Of a stretch of 64,000 bases of DNA, positions 8,301 through 51,040 are shown in pieces. The notes beneath the pieces are model-generated. The model searched no databases, was not told the DNA's origin, and worked only from the letters and a program-made list of their open reading frames with translations. A program made the translations under genes and the position numbers. The stretch is from Odontesthes bonariensis (taxonomy: Eukaryota; Chordata; Actinopteri; Atheriniformes; Atherinopsidae): the NCBI RefSeq assembly GCF_027942865.1, contig NC_134515.1, forward strand, positions 14,299,227-14,363,226, given 5' to 3'. The number at the start of each line of letters is the position of its first letter. Within the stretch, counting starts at the first letter, position 1.

Positions 8301-10141
8301 AGCCAATGTCTGTGAGTTCAGTTCTGTTTGCTAATGTCACCCTCATCAGTGTGCTGTCCCTCATGCTCCCAGTACCATGGCCAATTAGTTTGTAATTCAG
8401 TGTGTTGTCTCTTTGTCTTCCTTTTCTGTTCTCAGGGTGTCCCCATGAGTCCAGGACTCACTGTTCCAGGGACGGACGCTTCTTTGCTTCTCTCCCCCAG
8501 CGCCTTCCAGCAGTCTGTCAATAAAACCCCGGCAGTAGCAGCACCAGTGGTCCCTCCTGGTCCCGCTGAGCCACCGTCAGCCTCTGGAGGAGCCGTAGAG
8601 CCCTTAGCGGTCCCCTGCAGCAAAACACAGTTACAGGAGACTTTGATACACCTCATTAAGGTACACCAATGGCATAAAACAAAGGGCACACTCTTGGGAG
8701 AAGTTCAAGCAAAAGCAGTTGACTCTAACCAGAGCTGCACAGTATATTGCGACAGAATTATTCAGAGTTGATTATTGACAAAATAAATGATAGATTAGCT
8801 GAAACTCACATCCTTTCCATTTTCTGTTATATACAAAAGTTCAAATTCATTTTTATTTCTTTTTTTCTTCTAAACTGTTCAGTTCTCACAAAAAAAAAAA
8901 AATCTATGTAAGCTGACTAATTAGTTTCAAATAGCTATTTAAGTATTCTCCTGGAGCTTCTGTATCTTTTTATTTTAGTTGAGTTATTTGGTTTACTCGG
9001 ATAAAGACTGAAAACAGTTTATTTAGTCTTGGCTGAATTTGTCTGCGTTTTAAGACTCTGCCTCCACACTGGTATGATTAAACTGGCTGTTCTTTCATTT
9101 TGGGTGGTCACAGCACTGGGAAAATACATAGAAATATTTTAACAGTTTCTCTCTAGAAACAACATTACTGATAGTCAGGATAATCTGTTCATCTTTATAT
9201 TTGCCAAGTCATTTATGGTGTTGCTCTGTCTATTGATGCTTCCAGATCTTGTGGCAGAATACAACCGAGTGTCTTTACTGACTCTGAAATAAAAGAGTGT
9301 TTGTTAAGAAAAGCAAATGCAAAGGTGCATTAAGCCTGCGTTCTTTCTAATGACCAGCAGGGGGCAGCTCCAGGTCACAGAAAGATGACAGTTGGTTTGA
9401 AGACTTTAAGGAAGTTGCTGCACTTCTAACTTGAAATTATTTCCTGAAGTTTTTGGTCCCATTCACTAGTTTAAATTATCCTGGTATGCATGGTTTAGTT
9501 GGCCTATTAGCTCATTTTTTGTGAGGGTGGGATAATGTCCTCAGGTTCACAGTCAGATCTTCCCCTCTTTTCTTCTTCTTCTTCTTCTTCTTCCCTAAGC
9601 TAACGATCAAACGGTTACAGGTTCTACTGGGTCTCTTGGGCAGATTTGATTTGGGGCTCTTAACTTATCACCAGCTTCTCGGGTCCTTCCCAAAATGAAA
9701 TCCAAGTTCTCATGTGATTAATGTTGGCCATCCCAGTTTTCCCCTATATTATTTTTAAAGTCAAAAGCATTCATGTTTATGTTAAACGTCAATTAAACAT
9801 CATACAAATGTTAGCCCAGCAATTTGAGCAGGAACTCCGTGTATGTAGCTTAAGCTCCTCTTTGCAGTTAGTCTGGGTTTGGACCCTTTGCTGCTTGTAA
9901 TCCTCCTCTCTTGTTCTGACTTTACTGTCCAGCAACTTTGAAAAACTTTCTATTTCTCCTATTAAAAAGGTAGAAATGAACTAGGATCAGAAATGTCTTT
10001 TCTTTTTTTGTAAAATTTCCCAGTTTGCTAATTCTTCTTGTTCACTCCCTCCTTGTCCAGAATGACCCAGACTTCCTCAGTGCCATTCATGATGCTTACC
10101 TGCAGAGTCTATCCAAGGACTTCAGCAGCATGAAGCTATAG
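2392..10141 (+). CDS. dcp1a: mRNA-decapping enzyme 1A (Dcp1 family, EVH1 domain), 9 exons
   Basis: Coding exons are 2392-2523, 2877-2917, 3581-3708, 5969-6035, 6221-6359, 6497-6595, 7736-8311, 8436-8660 and 10061-10141. They join in phase to give 495 aa plus TAG. Residues 1 to about 123 form the Dcp1 EVH1 domain, including QVALYTFNSKTNEW, a HGFTIMNRL block, QLQDPFLLYKN and IWFYDKRDCQRIAQLM. A VEELFG motif and a long Pro/Ser/Gln-rich low-complexity region follow (exons 7-8). The end (LIHLIKNDPDFLSAIHDAYL) matches the Dcp1 C-terminal trimerisation domain. Dcp1a is the co-activator of the Dcp2 decapping enzyme in cytoplasmic P-bodies. The start is the first ATG of the EVH1 frame. Human DCP1A is 582 aa, so this one is shorter, mainly in the disordered middle. 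Exon 6 could instead begin at 6503, a tandem acceptor that would remove two residues. tkt lies downstream on the same strand, as I remember for human. Confidence 0.93.
9354..9368 (+). promoter_or_regulatory. CTCF-like core motif, forward
   Basis: CCAGCAGGGGGCAGC in the last dcp1a intron matches the CTCF core consensus CCASYAGRKGGCRS at every position. The motif is known to be conserved across vertebrates. Whether it is occupied cannot be seen from sequence. Confidence 0.5.
9569..9593 (+). repeat. (TTC)n microsatellite
   Basis: About eight uninterrupted TTC units in the last intron of dcp1a. Confidence 0.9.
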
Positions 10142-13749: not shown

Positions 13750-14690
13750 CTAAAACTGGAGAAATATGATCTCTCCTGTTAGTTTTATCAGAACTCTGGC
13801 TACAGCATTTTGGATCAGCTGAAGGCTTTTCAGAGAATATGTGGGACAGCCCAATAATAAAGAATTACAGAGGTCCAGTCTTGAAGTAACAAATGCATGG
13901 GCCAGTTTTTCTGCATCACTCTGAGACAAGATGTTCCTGATTTTAACAATATTACGAAGATGAAAGAAGGCAGTCCTAGAAACCTGTTTTATATGCGAGT
14001 CAAATGATAAGTTCTGGTCAAAAATAACTCCATGGTTCCTCACTGTAGAGCTAGAAGCCAAGGAAATGCAATCCAGAGTAACTATATAGCTAGACAATTT
14101 CTCCCTAGAGCGCTCAGGTCCAAAGACAACAACTTCAGTTTGGTCTGAATTTAGAAGCAGACAGTTCTGAGTCATCCAGGTCTTTATGTCTTTAAGACAT
14201 GCTTGTAGTCTGACCAACCTATTGGTTTCATCTGGTTTTATAGATAAGTACAACTGAGTATCATCAGCATAGTAATGGAAATTTATACCATGCTGTCTAA
14301 TAATGTTACCTAATGGCAGCATAAAGTGAAAAGAATCGTTCCAAGCACAGAACCCTGAGGAACTCCATGACTTACTCTGGTGTGTGAGGAAGATTCTTCA
14401 TTTACAAGAACAAACTGAAATCTATCAGATAAATATGACTTAAATCAGCCTAATGCAGTTCCTTTAATCCCAATAACATGTTCAAGTCTCTTTAATAAAA
14501 TACTGTGATCGACCGTATCAAATGCAGCACTGAGATCCAACAGGACAAGCACAGACACAAGTCCGCTATCAGAGGCTAAGAGGAGATCATTGGTAACTTT
14601 CACCAGTGCTGTTTCTGTGCTATGATGCACTCTGAATCCGGACTGAAACTCATCAAACAGATTATTTCTGTGTAAATGATCACAAAGCTG
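13750..14690 (-). pseudogene. Reverse transcriptase fragment of the L2-like element
   Basis: Two minus-strand frames (14630-14445 and 14322-13750), linked by a short out-of-frame stretch, carry RT motifs in the right order: an STETALVKV block, [16 protein letters not shown] with the first catalytic Asp, and YYADDTQLY with the second and third. The catalytic residues themselves remain, but the frame is interrupted and the N-terminal fingers are absent, so no active enzyme is encoded. Confidence 0.85.
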
Positions 14691-33847: not shown

Positions 33848-36800
33848 TCAGTTCCTGTACTCATCCCCACAGTCTCCGATGAGCGCCGTGAGGTCCCTGG
33901 AGCGCCGTGTCACTGCTTCGATGGCGGCGTGATCTTCCGCCGTCAGCTTCAAGTCGGGGCCGCAGCTACGCAGACTGTCACTGATGTGCTGCCCCGCCCC
34001 TGACACGCCGAGGCGGCAACCCACAATAACTCCGCCCACCGCAGGGCGGTCCAGCACATAACGTGTTGCCACACTGGCCACTGAGCAGCCGTGTCCCTTG
34101 GCGACAGTCTCCAAGGTTACGAGCAGGTCCTGGAAAAGGCTCCATCCACCCCAGGTGTCGATCATGTTCTTGTACTTGGAGAGGGAGGCGGTGTATAGCT
34201 CCGCCCTGGAGTTGGGCTCCGCACTCCCCAGATAACGCTCGGAGAGCAGACCGCCAGCTGAGAGCGGGAAGAGGGATGGAGGAGAGGTGGTGAGATGAAG
34301 GAGTTAAAAGTGGCAGGCAGTATAGAAAGGTTATCAAGACAAAGAGTATGGGGTGGGGAGACGGGAGAGTAGGGGGAGGAGAGACAGCAGGAGTAAAAGG
34401 AGAAGAGTCCAAGTTTAAGAGAGGATGTGTCGTCATGCCAACTGACTCCATCTTAGAAGCCCTCCATCTTACACATTTACACGACAACAGTAAAAGTGCT
34501 GAACATGAAGTGTATTGTGACGGTGATCATTATGTATCTAAAATAATTCAAATGTGGACAAGATGCATCTCACCCAGTGTGCCGTAAGTGAGGAGCTGGA
34601 TGTTGTTTGCCAGACAGAACTGCTCCATCCTCGCTGCCGGTCGCTGGTCAATCAAAGAGTACTGAACCTGCACAGGCAGCCACATCACAAACGAGGTTAA
34701 AGGATGCACTGAAGGAGGAGAGGAGGAACATTGTGACACGTCCTGTAGCGTGTAGACGGATGCGTTACCTGGTTGCTGGAGATGCGGATGCCGATGTTGG
34801 TGATCTCCTCCAGTCTCTGCGTGTCAAAGTTAGTGAGGGCGAGCTCCCCTGGAGAACAAAGAGGACAAAGGATTACAGAAAGGGACAATGAGACACATGA
34901 CCCGTTTTTCTTTCTGATGCTTCAGTGCCATCTGAGTGTGTGTGTTAAAGTCTGAAATGTGTCTTAATATTCAGTCTCCCTTCACACTCACGTTGAATCG
35001 CGTTGTGGCGTGCTTTGCCATGTTTAATTGCGGATTTGCTTTACAGGTATTACTCTGCTCCTGATACTGACATGAAGGGATTTAATAAACAGCTAAAATG
35101 ACATAATTGGTAGAAATTTGTTTTGAAATTCTAACTAACTGATTTGTGATCTAAAGTTGAGATCTATGGCTGATTTGTTACTTTGGAGCAGCAATGTGCA
35201 CATAGTGAAATTCTCAAATTCCATTTAGCTTTTAACACCATATCATGATATTTCTCAGAAGTTGGAGCAGCTGCAGTTGAAATGTGGTGGAAAGCTTCGG
35301 AAACACCATGTAACTGAAGCAAGTGAGAGAACAATATCCAACGAAAGACTGGGAATGAAAGCTGACAGCAAAGCTGGTGAGTGGAACTTGAATTAAGCTT
35401 ATATTACTTACTGTTTACGAGCTATTTTTTTACTAAACGGAAAGCATTCTGGGTCAACTTCTATTGTTTTTTTCTCATGTATCTATAGGTAAAGGTGACT
35501 CAACTTGACTCCCATTTCTAGGTTGAAAAGTTTGTTTTAGCTCCTTAACCAACACTTAAACACAAACTATTATAAACTCTTTTTTTTTTTTTTTATACTT
35601 GTTTAACTGTAAACAAATTTCAAATGTTCAGAGTGCACATACGTATGACTCCCTCCTGCTGCAGGTCAGACAGGTGTCCCAGTGCATCCAGATATCTCTT
35701 GTCTTCGTAGTCCCACCAGTGAAACTGAACACAGTCCAGAGTGTCCACCTGCATTCGGGTCATGGAGCGCTGCAACGCCTTCTCCACCACCTGCACACAA
35801 AGAGGCAGGTCAGCACCCGTCAAAGTCAAACTGACTCTGACCATTAAAAACAACACAGGAAACTGATTTAACTCATAGGGTTGTTTTCAGTCTCTGCAAA
35901 CATAAACACAAAACTTTATATGGAGCCTGACCAGTACTGGATTTTTGTGCTGTATAACAGAACTGATATATAGAATTTCGTCTCTAAATTACCCCAAAAC
36001 AACATCTTGAAAACAATAACTGATAGTGCTGGTAAACATAAATAACATATATCGTGCACAGCAGCTACATGTGAATGTCAAGGTTTCCTAATAATGTGCA
36101 GGTATTTTAGATCAAATGAGACCATAAGAATCACTGCGATCCTATGTAGACCAGAGAGGAGATGCTTTGGTGGTTTATAAAGTAACACAGCGCACCCCGG
36201 TGGATAAAACCAGACTTACAGCTAAAAACACAACAGGAAGTCAGCAGCTCACCTTGCGTTCCATCGTTCCTGGTCTCGGCACATATTTTGTCAAACTCTG
36301 CAGAGCTGGGGCAGTTTTCCCAGAGGACTTTAACTAAGGGTCAGACAAAGACAATCAAAGTTACAAAACAAATTAAAGGAGCTCTGTCATTTTTCTGCCA
36401 TTGTTCTCTATTATCATGTATTTACTATTTTGTGGTCATGACATATGGAACGTGTGAGAACATTTTTTTCAAGTGTGTGCCGTGTATCTGTGGAGATGTG
36501 TAGAGAACTGACACGAAAAATTATCAATACCCAGCCAAGAGTGAGCTGAAAGAATTATGGCGAATATATTATGCATTTCCATCACAGTTACTTAGATGAA
36601 ACTGTGTTAAGTTACACAAAATGCTGTAACTATCAACAGCTTCCAGAAAATACAAGAAGTGCTATCAAAACAAGAAATATTATTTTAGGATGTAACACAA
36701 CCTAATTTTCACAAAAGTTGATCTGAAAGTCAGAATGCAACACTCTGTCAAGCTTTTAAACACTTACATTTTTGCAATAATGTTTCTCAATGTAAAATCC

Positions 36801-39186: not shown

Positions 39187-42611
<3,425 letters not shown>

Positions 42612-45600
42612 TCAGTGTTTAGCAGCCACACTGGCCCGTTTAAGAGTCTTTGCCTTTATAGAGTTTTTGTAAAGGAGCAGTCTCTCTGTAGTGTGAGGCG
42701 GCAGGCGGTTTCTTTTGGCTCTTACAATACATGCCGCCATTGGATAAAGACGGTCAAACCCCCCAGAAGTGGCCGGTGCTGCCAGCAGCTTCCTGGCCAT
42801 GTCTTGGAGTTGGGGGAACCGGACGGCAGATTTCCAGTACTGAAGACTGGAATTGTTTTCCCACAGTGGTTCAGATAGGTACACGTCAAACTCTGACATC
42901 TTCATTGTCTTTGCAGGTGGCTGGAGGAAGCTGAAGATGGACTTGCGCTTCAGGTCGTTTCCGATGACTCCATCACAGTTGTCATCTGAGCTGCCACCAG
43001 ATGCCTCCAGTACAGTGTCAGCTTGGTTTTCTTCTTCCACTTCCTGCTTCTTTGTAGGCTCATCACCTGTCTGCTCCTTATCTTCCTCCACTGGGGGAGA
43101 CGCTGAATCCTCTGTGCTTACCAGTGTAGATTTAATAATAGCATGAGCCTCTTTCTTTGTAGGGGGTGTTAGGATATCTGTCTGTTTTTCCACTTTGGCA
43201 TCAGAAAATGGCTAGAAAAAAAATACAGATGCTTATTTTAAAATTGGAATAAATGCCATATTACATCCTTTTTTAAAGCATATAATTTGCGGATCCGATA
43301 TGGTATAAAGATAAGCCTTTATAGTAAATAAATACCTGCAGTTTGATCCTGGGGTCAAGCACAGTAGCTAGTAATATTTCCTTCTGGTGAATCAAAGACT
43401 GGAAGTGTGTGTAGATGCCTGTGCGCAGGGCCTTGCAGAAGTGGGTGTAGTTGGTGACACGGCTTTCCAAGGTCTTATCAAGGCCAATGAGTGAGGGGAT
43501 GATGAAAGAAATGGCCGCACCGTTTCCTTGCAAGACCTATGTTAAAAGCAAAATGATGATTAAGGAATCCAAAAACAATACCCCAGTGATGTCCACAAAG
43601 AAGTGTTTTAGTGTTTATGACTTGGTGTAAAACTGTCATGGGTGCAACAGAAATAAAACAAAAAACTACATAACACTCATGTATCATCAAATGAACCAAT
43701 TAAAGCATTAAAGATGAAGGTGATCTTGTAAACAATGACACAGACATGTTTTCATTTCTTTTTCAATTGCGTGCTTGTTTATGAGGGACAATAAATAGAA
43801 AACGGCAACATAAGAAAGCCAGACAGGCTTGAAAATGATAAAACATGACCTCAAAGATCATCTTATATTCTCAACAATCCAATGCATCCACAAAGTTCAA
43901 AATAAATTGCCATTTTACCTGCAAAGCCTCCTCAAAAGGCTCAAGCAGACCCAGAATGTCAACCACTTGCTCCCTTTTGACCATGACCAGAGGGGGGGCG
44001 CTGGCAGCGTCGGTAGCCTCTATGCGAGCTTGAGCCAGGAGGGTCATGATGGTGCTCCAGGTAGTCTCTTGCACCATTCTCCGTAACGATACCATCATGG
44101 AGTTCCAACGACAGTTACTGGAGGATGGGCACAGAGACACATTGCACTCCTTCAACAAAACCTTGGAGAAAAAAACAGTAGCAATGTTAGAACAGTTGTG
44201 GAAAGGAGGACCTCATCTCATTAGATATTTTGCTGTAAAACTGCATGAGCTACTGTGAGTGGTTCTAAATAAAAAAAAAAATCCTTATTATGTTAGCACC
44301 TCACTAACAACCTTTAAAGACCAAATAAGGTGGACTCTGATGATACAGATGACAGACCTACCCATTTAAAATGAATGAACAGGTGTGTCCAGCCCTTTTC
44401 GAATGATGTAGATAAGTTTATTTCTAATTATATGGGACATTGATAATTATGTAATAATAAAACAGTAGAAAGAAAGCACATTTAAAACATCTCAACGTGC
44501 AGATGCTGTCATTTTTGGATCCATGAAATCTGTCACAGATATACAGACTTTGATTGTGCATCTTTGAAGTAAGAATATATCCATTTTAAATACTCCTCAA
44601 GTAAAATTTGAATGCATTAGCTGTTTTCTCTTACCTCACTCCAGTAGGCGCTGCTCTTGAAAAAAGCCACCACATTGTGGACCTGCGAGAGCAAGTTCTC
44701 AACTACTCTGGAATTTTTTAGGGCATCCTTGATTACCAACTGCAAAGTTTTGGCAACACAGGTGAAATCTGTCCCAATCTGCAGTTCTGAAAATGGAGAC
44801 TCTGTTTCTGACATCTGGTCTGACAGAAATGCCAGTATTTCATCTCCATCTGGTTCTCCCCTGTTAGATGAGCACACAATCTTGTAGTCGCAGAACAAGT
44901 TGTTTCCAGCTAGGGTTTCTTTGGCCTGGTTGGCAAGGATGTAGCCAATGCTGCGAGGAAAGATGCCATAGCTCAGCAGCACACCCTCCAGCTCTTTTGC
45001 CACAGTGGTGCTGAGGTTTTTGTGACTGAGGTGACGGAACGCCATCACAGGACGGCGGATCTGCCAGGAATCATTGACAAAGTGGAGTTGCACAACAAGG
45101 ATTGGACCCTCCGCTTGTTGTGACCGATCCCCTGCCCAGAGGTCACAGGTCACATGAATGGCACTTGCACCATCTTTGGTGTTGGCGAGGGAGGCTTTGA
45201 GGTCACGGATGAGTTGAGGCTTAATGGTTCTTTCCACATCCTCATAGAGCTGCACGCCCATGGCACGCTGGGACAGCTTACTATATTCAGGGTTTATGGT
45301 ACTCATGAATGACCTGAAGCCAGTGCCTTCAACAAAACTGTGAGGAGAAGAGAGTTGTTTTTTTGTTTTTTTCCACAAAGGAATTCTCAAACTTTGACAA
45401 TTTAACAACTTTAGACAACAACCCGAAAAGGGCACTCTGTCAGCCATGGGCAGTACAAGTCACCTGAGGGGCAGCATGTCCTCAGCAATCATCCTCAGCG
45501 CAGCATCTGCAAACTTTCTCTGGTCCACCTGCCCAGTTGATAATGCAACGCCAGAACTCGGACTGGAACTTGAACTGAGAGGCAACGAGGGACTGGGGGA

Positions 45601-48600
45601 GGAAACCTCTCTCCGTGATGAAGTTTGAACAGCTCTCTGTTTTGCTCTCTGATGTTCCTTCTGTTGCTTTGCCTTCTCAGATCTGACCTGCAGCAAACCA
45701 CAGATTCCAACAATGAAACAAGCTTCTCAAATGGGGATATCTTAGAACAAAACATTAAGGATTATTTTATTCAACAGCAGTACATCCAACTACTTCAGAA
45801 AAAAGTTTAAATGGAAAACTTCTATTGTAAGCTTACCTCGTCAGTATTCACTGGATCAGCATCTATTACAACATCACATTTGAAGTCCACCTGTTACACA
45901 ACAATAATGTCAGTGCTGCAAACATAACACCAATTATTATAGACAATCTGATTAGGAAGTCACAAAATGAGAGTATAAAATTTATTCATATTCATTATAG
46001 AAAGTATAAACCAAGCCTTTCATCAGGTTTGATCAATTATCAAATTCTAACTGAAAGACATTTTTTTCATTATCAGTGGAAACTGAAAATGGTTAGCTAA
46101 ATACAATGTATGCTACATTGAACGCACTGTACCTCTCCATCCACAAACTGTTGAATGTCAAGGGAAATGCTGTCAGCTTCATCTTTTAACAAGCCCAACA
46201 CCGCTTTGCGTTTGATGGTTGAGTTCCAGTGATTCTTTACGGAGTTGTCTGATCTGCAGGAGGCATCCAAATACTCAAATTAAAAACAAAATTCTCATCT
46301 AAGGACTTATTTTACAAATATCTGCCTGCCCATCATCCAACTCGTTAACATTCAGCAAAGCAGTCACAGCTAACTGACTCACCTTCCAGGAAGCAGCTTG
46401 GAAATCTCAGCCCACCGGTTACCAAGAATGGAGTGGGCTTTGTAGATGATGAGATCCTCCTCATCAGTCCAGGAACTCTTCTTGATCATGGGGTCAAGGT
46501 GGTTATGCCAGCGCTCACGACACTGTTTCCCCATCCTCCCCTTCAGGTGCTTGGCAATTAAAGTCCAGTTTCTTGAGCCGTACTTGTCCACCAGCTCTAC
46601 TATCTATAGAGAACACATACATACGTAAAAAACATGATAGGACAATATGAAAAGTTGGATTAATCTATTCTAATCCCATACATTTCAGTGAAATTAAGCA
46701 CATATCTCGCCACAGTCTGGTAGCTGTCCTATTTGAGTATGCAATAAAAAACAAATGAGTGGTTAACAAACAGCCCTGGTTCTGTAAATGGGAAACCAAA
46801 AAGTTTAATTGGGCCAATTGACATCATCCAACCAAACGGGGGTTTGTTCATGCTTGTGTAAAGTGTCATATTTGCCAGGGAATGCTGAGACTAATACTAG
46901 TCCCAATAATATAAAGTTCAAACTTGTTTACATGAGTATTGTTGTCTGTCTTTATGTTCATATTTCATTCAGACCTCAGGCACCCTCTCAGCATGGGAAC
47001 TGCAATACCTGTATGCTGCATCAGGTCTTGGGTGAGGACACAGCCAAGGCACTGCCACAATGACGTAAAGATACCAATGCTCACAGTGGAACTTTTCAGC
47101 CTACAGCTAAGTTTAGACTTATGAACTGCAGAGAGCAGTGAAACTGATGTCACAATAATCGGTGCGCCTGGCACTTTAGCTTAATTTCAGCTGGTCCTTC
47201 CCCTCACAACCTTTGCAACCATTCCCGTGCCATACAAGCAGCATGTTTAAAAAATAACAGGAAGAGCTGCAGGGTCCATCAAAACCCATGAGAGTACAAT
47301 TATGGCAAATGTTACAGAAAAATCAAATACAACTTACAAGTTAAGCAGGTAAGTTGAAACTGTAATTATGTTTGTGTTTGAATAGACTAGCAGCTGGTTC
47401 AACCATTTTACTCACTTGTTTTCACTTCATTCAAGACAAAATTGACTAAATTATGCCTTCTGAGGTCTATTCAGCCTGACACAAGGGAATGCTTTTCTTT
47501 TGTCTTTACAGCGACATAGCTTGATGGGAATATTCCAGACTCTACCATTCAGCTTAACCATTTAACATGCCACTGAGCAGACACAGCCTTCGTAAAGCAT
47601 GTTAAGGCTTGCTGTTGACATTCAAGGCAATTTTATATTGTTTGTGCATAACAGTCTTTCTACAGAATGGCTTACTCAACCTATAAAATGTTTTTTAACC
47701 AAGTCTGCAACAGATTTCCCACATTTATGTTTTTCCTACCTTATCATCCTCCTCTTTGGACCAAAATCCCTTAATTAAATCAGGATCCAGATGTTTTTTC
47801 CAACGGAGCATACACTGTATTTCTGTCCGCCCCTGTCCAAGAAACAGAAAAATGATTTAGCATTTCCTCTAAAGAAAACCTCAACTGCCTGCATGATCAA
47901 GACATTTTGCAATATGATTGACAATCTGAAGTTACTTAGTCTCTTTAAGGTGGGGTATGAGATGTTTTCTGGAGCATTTTTTATCATATTGTCTGAAAAC
48001 CTCCTCACGACCCCATTGCACCCACTAAAATAGAATGTTTGGGAAAAAAAAATTATATTTTAGTCCATTGCAGAGGGTGTAGCAAGAGGAAATGTCTGAC
48101 CAATAGAAGTAATGATGAGAGTTACTTCTATTGGATTCTGACATGCCAATCAACCGTCAGCCCCCCTCCCCCCTGCGCGTTCACAGACTCGTGACTCGTT
48201 CATGTGTTTTGAAGGCGTGGTTTCGAGGGGTGGGCTGAAGGGAGAGGCAAGGTTGTGTATTTTCAAAAATATAGCTTGCAGGAACCGTTTTTCCAAGATC
48301 TCAGACCCCACCTTTAACTAACTAATAAAGAGGAAAATATTGCTTTCATGAGTACTTACAGGTAAAAAACTAGCAATGGTGCGCCAATCTTTTTTTCCGA
48401 AGTTGCTGATGAGGATTTTAAGATTTTCATCCTACACATCAGAGAAAAAAGGTTCAGACACATTTCATAACATTGGGTGAAAATGTACCCATTCAAGATC
48501 GGAACTAACTATGCTCTGTGTGAAGGCGCGTGCGTGTTCAGCTGTATTTGGGATTTCAAACTCAGATTCTTGTTTCTTTGCTGTCAAGAGCGATCCCCCA

Positions 48601-50547
48601 CGGACAAAGGAATGGTCTGGACTCTTCAGATAAAGGCACTCTGACAGTGATCGGAAGTTTTTAATCCCAAATACTGCTGAACAAATGTCCATCTTCATTT
48701 GGAGCGCAGTTAACTTTCAACCATATGACTGATTGATACTGAGTTTTTCCACTCTGTATAATTTAATGTAGCTCACAGTAAATGAGCTTTTAAATTTAAA
48801 CAATTAGTATGTTGTCAAAAAAAAAAATAATAATTTTCTACACTCACCTCTTCCTGGGTCCATTTTACTTTACATTCGCCGTCCTTCTTTTCTCCTGTGT
48901 CTGAATCGTTCCCAATGAACAGTTTACAATCCTCCTCTTCCATACTAAAAACGCACACAAAAATAATTACAATTAATATTTACAAACATACAGGATGATA
49001 AAACAAGTTACATCTCAGCATACACAATGGACATTATGTTCTATGAACAGTTCTTATGGCCAGTATGAAGCTTAAAAAGAATTGTGGTTAATTTCATCAA
49101 TAAACTTAATTCCATCTATCTTCATTGCACCAGTAAACAGCACTAAATGACACTTCAAGTACTATGGCGTCGTAGTACAGTATAGGGATCTTTTGAAGAG
49201 TGTTGCCAGAACAACCTCTTTAGAGAAAGCACTCAAAAGTGTAGTCCTAACGTGCAACGTCTCAAAATGCAATACCAAGGACCACCAATGGGCACTGGCT
49301 CCAAAACATCCCTCGCCTCCCACAGTGACTTTGAACGACAAAGCAGTTGCAAAAACTTAAAAACAGTTCATTAAGTTTCAATCCCCAAAGCTCTAGCTCC
49401 AGCCCCAGAAAACCCAGACAGATTGGCATTTACAATCGCTATTTGCATCAGAATTTCTAAACAGTGTTGCAGCTAAATTTGTGAACACTGTCAGGTGTTT
49501 TAAAATAATTATTTTAATGTACATGCACCACATAAATGAATTATTTTCAAACAGATCTATTGAAGGTGCTGCTCCTATAGTTACGCATTATAATTTCAGT
49601 ACTTTTTTTTCAGTTCGGGTTGGCAGCTGCTGATGCCTGGGAGAACAGTTTCCACACGTTTGGAAAACATTTAATGTAACACAGTTTCATCTCAAATATT
49701 AAATATCCAGACAAAATGTGACCGAACTATCAATTATCCAAGTGGTAACAATTTATTTGTATATACGGCATGCGTTTTACAATTTTATATGCAGCAACCC
49801 AGTCAGCTAAAAACAACTTGTCCTACACAACAGCGAGCTAGCATTTAACTGCCAACAGAAAGCTGAGATAGCTAAGTAGCTAACATTAGCTTCTTCAAAA
49901 CAAACAAAAAGTTCGAAATAAACTCGAAATGTGTAGGTATTCCTGCAAAACAATACACTTCACGGCTCTTAAGACAAAACTGGAGTGGCTAATACCTATG
50001 AATGAACAGAACTTACATCAAAAACAGGCTTTGACTTACTGCTAGCTAACGCGGCTAGCAAGTCTCAAGAACATTTCACTTGAGGAAACGTTAGCTCGCT
50101 GACAAAGTAGAGCACCTCAAGCGGCGCACGTACGCTAATGCAGCGAGCCTGTCCGCTACTAGTTTTATCAGCGAAAACGAGACGTTTGTAGTCAATTTTG
50201 ATGTTAGTGACGGACGCAGTGAGCTAACATGACAACAAGGAGAAAACCAAATCGTCTAACTAAATTTAAGAGTGTATAACTACTCCTGGGATACACCGTT
50301 TCCAGCTCTTTGCCGTTACACAACAGAGACGAGGCGTTTAAAGGGACGTGATGGGAGAAAACAACCGACACTCAAACTCTTATACACACAACAAAGCAGC
50401 GAACGTTGATTTACAACTGAAGGATTGCGATGTTTTAAATTCTTTACCCGCGACGCATTTCATGCAAAGCAAAACACAAATACACGTGTGTTGATAATAG
50501 TGCACATTTACAGACATCTATGGCTCCCTCACTTACCCGCGCGACAT
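42612..50547 (-). CDS. Chimeric protein: B-Myb-like R1R2R3 DNA-binding domain fused to a domesticated hAT transposase, 12 exons
   Basis: Minus-strand exons are 50547-50537, 48944-48848, 48431-48360, 47832-47740, 46603-46383, 46253-46133, 45890-45837, 45687-45464, 45337-44635, 44161-43919, 43536-43336 and 43211-42612. They join in phase to 879 aa plus TGA. Residues about 28-180 are three Myb/SANT repeats with the key tryptophans present (W32/W52/W71, W84/W104/W123, W136/W155/W174). The closest match I know is B-Myb/MYBL2 (LIAKHLKGRMGKQCRERW, VKNHWNSTIKRK). After a Ser-rich linker (about 206-275) comes a hAT transposase body: LRMIAEDMLPL, IHVTCDLWAGDRSQQ, CRWNSMM, LATVLDPRIK and the C-terminal dimerisation block (YLSEPLWENN, APATSGGFDRLYP, AKRNRLPPHTTERLLL). 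There is no BED finger. Of the hAT catalytic acids only Asp363 remains: the second is Ala433 and the Glu position is Asp833. The Myb transactivation and LIN-complex regions are absent. It is probably a nuclear, sequence-specific DNA-binding protein. Its function is unknown. Confidence 0.9.
47949..48312. mobile_element. MITE with 15-bp inverted repeats in a Myb-hAT intron
   Basis: The left end GGTGGGGTATGAGAT and right end (opposite strand) GGTGGGGTCTGAGAT match at 14 of 15 positions. Both are flanked by TTTAA (47944-47948 and 48313-48317). The true duplication may be TTAA with one changed base. It is 364 bp with no coding capacity. It is a different family from the element at 25224. It lies between the exons coding the two halves of Myb repeat 1. 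Confidence 0.7.
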
Positions 50548-51040
50548 TCCTCCCCGATGTTGTGCCTGCTCCTCGCGCTGAAAACCAAAGACAGTTATAA
50601 AAGTTTAACAACTGACGCAAATCTTTTAATGAAACACATAATGATACGCTGCATGAAATTGGTATCGGTTAATGAAATACAGTACCAGTGATGGGAGTGA
50701 AAGTACTGTATAAATTCACCGGACAGAGTATAAGAGTTTTGCCTGTTCAAAAGCACCACTGCTGCGCACACTACTCCCCGGAAACGAACCACGTGACAAA
50801 CGGTTTCAACCGACACGAACGGTTAACAGTTGCACACTGGTCATGTAACTTTCTGGACTTTCTCCTTTCAGTAAAAACATTTTAAATGTGTTTTAAAAAT
50901 AACCTTGCCTGATCAAACATTTGTGGATTAAGTTCAAGCATTGTGTAACATTACAACAACAATTTAACAAAATGACCTCTTCACAGAATCACTCCAGGGT
51001 CACATTTCTGTTTAGCTACATGCTATGTAGCTAAGCACAC

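Follow-up and report, generated by a model that had tools for sequence, protein, structure and literature searches.

The window analysed here is a 64-kb stretch of contig C15 in the 945-Mb genome (187 contigs) of the fish Odontesthes bonariensis. Its minus strand carries, at 42612-50547, a predicted gene in which three Myb repeats of the B-Myb type are followed in the same reading frame by the body of a hAT transposase; this putative fusion gene is known here from the genomic sequence of one genome. A model of twelve exons in one frame of 879 amino acids (aa) had been put forward in the first-pass annotation of the window. It was reproduced at the same coordinates, with every join in phase and no phase error, giving a coding sequence of 2,640 nt (879 aa) and GT...AG borders at 11/11 introns. 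The features of the locus, in the direction of reading, were as follows.

50799..50831, minus strand: array of the Myb core motif AACNG, 7 motif matches at 4 places, 256-284 bp before the ATG
50537..50547, minus strand: exon 1, ATG, MSR and a split codon, placed only by frame and splice site
48848..48944, minus strand: exon 2, N-terminal section of the Myb region up to R1
48360..48431, minus strand: exon 3, R1; 72 nt, same length in the mybl2-like gene on contig C3 (the C3 gene)
47740..47832, minus strand: exon 4, R1/R2; 93 nt, same length in the C3 gene
46383..46603, minus strand: exon 5, R2/R3; 221 nt, same length in the C3 gene
46133..46253, minus strand: exon 6, end of R3 (STIKRK) and a short tail; phase 2 to 0; 121 nt against 133 nt in the C3 gene, same phases
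45837..45890, minus strand: exon 7, 18 codons, phase 0-0; 54 nt against 60 nt for the presumed exon 7 of the C3 gene, similar position
45464..45687, minus strand: exon 8, Ser/Pro-rich linker, then hAT homology from about R280; chimeric exon
44635..45337, minus strand: exon 9, hAT core; D363 kept, N434 (or A433 by the Hermes alignment), K494
43919..44161, minus strand: exon 10, hAT region including RWNSMM
43336..43536, minus strand: exon 11, hAT region including LDPRIK
42612..43211, minus strand: exon 12, acidic insert, hAT C-terminal dimerisation region (residues 787-862), D833 replacing the catalytic Glu, stop
42501..42506, minus strand: AATAAA 3' of the stop codon; a second one at 42055

Introns 6, 7 and 8 were 242, 149 and 126 bp long. 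No counterpart of exon 1 was found in the C3 gene by pattern search. Exon 7 resembled exon 7 of the C3 gene, which was placed by splice sites only, in position, length and phase, with no sequence similarity shown, and could be skipped in frame. The G+C content at third codon positions was alike in the two halves (0.52 and 0.56) and uninformative, and no Rfam match was found in the window at gathering scores.

The Myb half was well defined. Three stretches of PF00249 were matched with a total E of 9.2e-52, above the Pfam curated cut-off, and c-Myb (1h88) was aligned by phmmer to residues 29-181 (E 2.7e-70), bearing out the earlier claim of three complete Myb repeats at about residues 28-180. 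When the 879-aa product was scanned with Pfam, no models other than Myb-type ones and the hAT dimerisation region passed the cut-offs, and no Cmyb_C match was found; the C3 gene retains Cmyb_C, with E 4.6e-10 in one of its open reading frames (ORFs). The residues K128, E132, N136, N179, K182, N183, N186 and S187, which we take to be DNA-contact positions of c-Myb, all had their counterparts retained in the fusion, as judged from the 1h88 alignment.

The genome was searched for matches to the R2-R3 exon. From 26 scored candidates 13 matches were obtained, 7 of which were the fusion gene itself; besides it, matches lay at four places, on C3, C29, C25 and C19. In a tree of six Myb sequences (145 residues) the fusion grouped with the C3 gene at an ultrafast bootstrap of 87. 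This grouping was found again, with support of 89 and 92 under two models, when five uncertain junction columns, which had been partly guessed, were dropped (140 residues). The Myb part of the fusion was identical to the C3 gene at 97/140 positions, as compared with 84-93/140 for the four others, a small margin. Six residues were shared exclusively with the C3 gene, one with each of the three other fish paralogues and none with c-Myb. Between the fusion and the C3 gene, exons 3-5 were equal in length (72, 93 and 221 nt) and exons 6 and 7 equal in phase. The shared exon lengths and phases, together with the tree grouping, indicated that the putative Myb donor is a DNA-level duplicate of mybl2, introns included, and not a retrocopy, a mybl2-like gene being kept on C3. 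In the comparison of the Myb half with the C3 gene, the proportions of nonsynonymous and synonymous differences (pN and pS) were 0.20 and 0.71. As pS is near saturation, the duplication of mybl2 looks old, and the Myb half looks constrained along at least part of the path since then.

The match on C19 (G000:C19:1159716-1159943, L047) belonged to a divergent additional R1R2R3 Myb gene, 59-72% identical to the others and lying beside long repetitive sequence, in which one junction residue was uncertain.

The C-terminal domain of hAT transposases, PF05699 (Dimer_Tnp_hAT), was matched with E 1.6e-8, above the Pfam curated cut-off, and the landmarks CDLW, RWNSMM and LDPRIK were located at 362, 550 and 673, so that the hAT landmarks and C-terminal dimerisation block claimed at first stood. 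Hermes transposase (PDB 6dww, 2bw3, 4d1q, 8edg) was aligned by phmmer to the hAT part in three colinear blocks with a whole-sequence E of 4.4e-12, blocks 1 and 2 being weak singly (i-Evalues 49 and 0.062). L014, a complete BED-hAT ORF from elsewhere in this genome, aligned to residues 288-864 with 23.6% identity (E 1.9e-33). No zf-BED match was found in the fusion by Pfam, and a BED finger was present in 2/3 hAT relatives scanned (L014 and L015), the third (L017) having no Pfam match at all. The Myb repeats occupy the N-terminal place where L014 and L015 have their BED finger. It had been proposed that each partner lost one half and took that of the other. The proposal agreed with the finding of neither a BED finger nor Cmyb_C in the fusion, and needed refining for the Myb donor, which, with a mybl2-like gene still present on C3, would be a duplicate. 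The L014 element itself (L051/L014, G000:C22:3583869-3585743) is a BED-hAT element whose 625-aa frame is intact.

Four residues were followed that we take to be the catalytic set of hAT transposases: a first Asp, a second Asp, the His of CxxH and a Glu. In the fusion the first Asp was kept (D363), the second Asp was replaced by N434 (A433 by the Hermes alignment), the His by K494 and the Glu by D833. Among 13 aligned hAT relatives, by the analyst's count, the first Asp was present in 10/13, the second Asp in 11/13, the His in 12/13 and the Glu in 4/13; in the remaining rows the block was not covered or was misaligned (L004 in three blocks). As 3/4 positions of the set were changed, we infer that the hAT body no longer cuts and is catalytically inactive. 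This loss of catalytic residues was absent from the first-pass annotation and is added here.

A search of the genome with the hAT half, in which the best 75/593 candidates were scored, gave 76 matches, four of them the fusion gene itself. No close copy was found among these: the 72 non-self matches were 20-44% identical, the long ones 20-29%, and the best of them had E 1.6e-15. A parent transposon was sought in the same genome with the hAT half, and none close was found. A control search with L014 (70/2,625 candidates scored) yielded further L014 copies at 79-96% identity, mostly partial, indicating that the same method would have revealed close kin of the hAT half. Relatives of the hAT half were also looked for in viral contigs, where 0/31 pattern matches were confirmed. 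In a neutral drift simulation a 600-codon frame stayed open in 8, 1, 0 and 0 of 300 runs at 90, 80, 70 and 50% aa identity, respectively. Such rapid loss of the frame under neutrality argues that the hAT half has been kept by selection, unless it was captured recently from a family now absent here. These results bear on whether the gene could be a once-functional chimera that is now a decaying, silent relic. All 879 codons are free of stops, every intron keeps GT-AG, the Myb contact residues are retained, pN is far below pS in the Myb half and the simulated neutral frame closes fast, and a relic is therefore unlikely.

In L014 and L015 the stretch interrupted here by the four introns 8-11 is a single open frame. 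Some hAT elements have introns. In PMC3257199, transposable elements (TEs) are called intronless, fused transposases are described as mostly without introns, significant intron gain in TE-derived genes is reported in placental mammals only, and some hAT-derived human genes are listed with coding introns. The four introns in the hAT half are thus suggestive, unexplained and not decisive.

To determine where the two halves meet, the fusion and 13 hAT ORFs from this genome were aligned. The hAT homology started at about R280, in exon 8 (45687-45464), and not with exon 9 (45337) as had been claimed; exon 8 is therefore chimeric, and the part derived from the transposase includes intron 8. The predicted breakpoint is at intron 7/exon 8. 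The frame of exon 8 contained no Met from its upstream stop to the hAT homology, and with introns 6-8 being short, no separate ATG start is evident for the hAT part. A false merger of two adjacent units, a truncated Myb gene followed by a separate hAT gene or remnant, is improbable. It could draw on the link between the halves being made by exons 6-9 only, as read from genomic DNA, and on an AATAAA in intron 6 and another in intron 7. Opposed to it are the lack of a Met ahead of the hAT homology in an exon that is itself linker plus hAT, introns 6-8 of just 126-242 bp, the in-phase joins, and exons 6 and 7, which keep the phases of the C3 gene where that gene continues beyond them.

It is likewise improbable that transcripts mostly end early, by polyadenylation within intron 6 or intron 7, so that the main product is a short protein with the Myb domain only and the fusion is a minor form. 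The AATAAA at 45986 (intron 6) and 45771 (intron 7) would provide for such a product, and a DNA-binding domain without an effector would be a competitor, but the hAT exons remain open, and A+T-rich introns often contain AATAAA. It is barely credible that the gene is a mobile element, with a hAT transposon having acquired a Myb domain as its DNA-binding part: the Myb domain does lie N-terminal to the hAT body at the BED finger place of L014 and L015, but a second copy of either half was not found in 945 Mb among the candidates scored (no search for terminal inverted repeats or target-site duplications was made), the mybl2 intron plan is retained and the catalytic residues are changed.

With a Myb domain in place of the zinc finger and the cutting residues lost, the gene looks like a transcription factor made from a host gene and a transposon. 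It is probably an old, domesticated host-transposase fusion, predicted to encode a regulator that would bind Myb sites, be dead for transposition, dimerise through its hAT part and perhaps control itself. The first-pass annotation had proposed a new transcription factor combining Myb site specificity with a hAT dimerisation platform; an R1R2R3 of the B-Myb type was indeed found to share one frame with a hAT body, and the role as a transcription factor is a prediction from the sequence. In the proposed course of events, a duplicated mybl2, introns included, would have lost everything past exon 7 and been joined in frame to a hAT transposase body already without its BED finger, and one mRNA would span both halves. 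The Myb repeats may be expected to bind AACNG sites, in view of their family membership and retained contact residues, and the hAT body, by its homology to Hermes, could bring Myb sites into pairs by acting as a scaffold that dimerises or multimerises. As the Cmyb_C region of B-Myb is missing, the fusion would most likely compete with canonical Myb proteins, or modify them, at common targets.

Feedback control, which might be exerted by the fusion itself or by other Myb proteins, is suggested by a dense array of AACNG motifs a short way before the ATG of the gene. The array was the densest 60-bp stretch for AACNG in the 64-kb window, and 1/200 first-order Markov simulations of 64 kb reached seven motif matches per 60 bp anywhere, overlapping matches on the two strands (AACCGTT, AACTGTT) being counted twice. 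At other Myb genes (seven 10-kb loci, L041-L047; L048, with a run of N, left out) the maxima were 3-5 AACNG matches per 60 bp, a weak control because the promoters of these genes were not located. The possibility that the array is part of a repeat was rejected, as its 82-bp stretch matched one place in the genome in a search that skipped common words and may miss diverged copies. Folding of a 39-nt piece of the array was no better than that of shuffles (z -0.76). TTTGAA and an E-box, at 204 bp and 248 bp before the ATG, were also seen and were not counted as evidence.

Several points weigh against an old, self-controlling fusion. The motif AACNG was sought once the gene was known to be a Myb gene, the 60-bp width was chosen by the analyst, and L049, the surroundings of the hAT relative L014 with no Myb gene, reached 6 matches per 60 bp. 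The counterpart of c-Myb N139, which we assume to be a further contact position in this numbering, is Asp in the fusion (D128), and the change of the catalytic Glu to Asp is conservative. The pN/pS comparison of the Myb half is weakened by pS being near saturation and by the pooling of both branches, and a recent capture from a hAT family now gone from the genome would weaken the argument on age. On the account given in PMC3257199, four introns in the hAT half are unusual. A third intronic AATAAA (minus strand) lies at 44422 (intron 9), besides those in introns 6 and 7, and early polyadenylation at such sites would cost the product all or most of its hAT half.

A further-reaching version of the domesticated fusion is tentative and, on balance, doubtful. 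It would make the gene an ancient transcription factor of the fish lineage, in which the dead hAT body acts as an oligomeric scaffold for several B-Myb domains, allowing cooperative binding of clustered Myb sites, repressing or redirecting the cell-cycle targets of B-Myb and silencing its own promoter through the upstream array.

Four other features were recorded in the window. An N-terminal exon of nsun5 at 40529-41701 (minus strand; NSUN5_N, 2.4e-37) lies on the same strand as the fusion and begins ~1 kb past its stop; human NSUN5 and GTF2IRD2 both lie in the Williams-Beuren region, and the neighbour here is probably a coincidence. An aldo/keto reductase exon lies at 33848-34303 (minus strand), and a match to the C-terminus of an mRNA-decapping enzyme, barely above cut-off, at 8316-8771 (plus strand). 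A weak reverse-transcriptase match at 13750-14397 (minus strand), below cut-off, is probably a retroelement remnant.

No paper on a Myb-hAT fusion gene was found among the matches listed, in a search that left most subscription journals and fish gene catalogues outside, and some other annotation may well have given the gene an automatic name. In PMC10027918, on TE-derived transcription factors in animals, Myb occurs as a whole word once in the main text, for MADF. PMC10641963 warns that hAT elements are often mis-annotated as genes; for the fusion, three points count against such an error: no close copy was found, catalytic residues are changed and the exon plan is that of mybl2. Should the fusion prove old and conserved among fishes, it would be a further member of a family central to the cell cycle. 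With a host part of known site preference joined to a transposon body, it would allow the contribution of a dead hAT body to a transcription factor to be tested directly, and the mybl2-like gene of the same genome is a built-in control.

The kind of gene is already known, from GTF2IRD2 and the ZBED genes. The fusion resembled MYBL2 (B-Myb) in its R1R2R3 and in the plan of exons 3-7 as seen in the C3 gene, and differed in that Cmyb_C was not matched and a hAT body replaces the canonical continuation. It shared with Hermes transposase three colinear homologous blocks, including the C-terminal dimerisation region, but keeps only the first catalytic Asp and has no BED finger that was found. Most tetrapod host-transposase fusions reportedly keep the DNA-binding part of the transposase and a host effector; the present gene would be like them a regulator born by joining host and transposase exons, and unlike them in that the host supplies the DNA-binding part and the transposase the body. 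GTF2IRD2 of mammals, as described in PMC10641963, is a transcription factor with TFII-I repeats and a 3'-fused Charlie8 hAT; it resembles the fusion in having host transcription factor domains with a hAT transposase at the 3' end, and differs in having TFII-I repeats instead of Myb. ZBED genes are domesticated hATs according to PMC3606216, where the DDE triad seems to be described as kept across ZBEDs. They would share with the fusion a domesticated hAT body serving as a host regulator, but they carry a BED finger, whereas in the fusion none was found and the triad is changed. Fusion of host and transposase exons is a known route to new regulators, and the usual roles of the two partners look reversed here.

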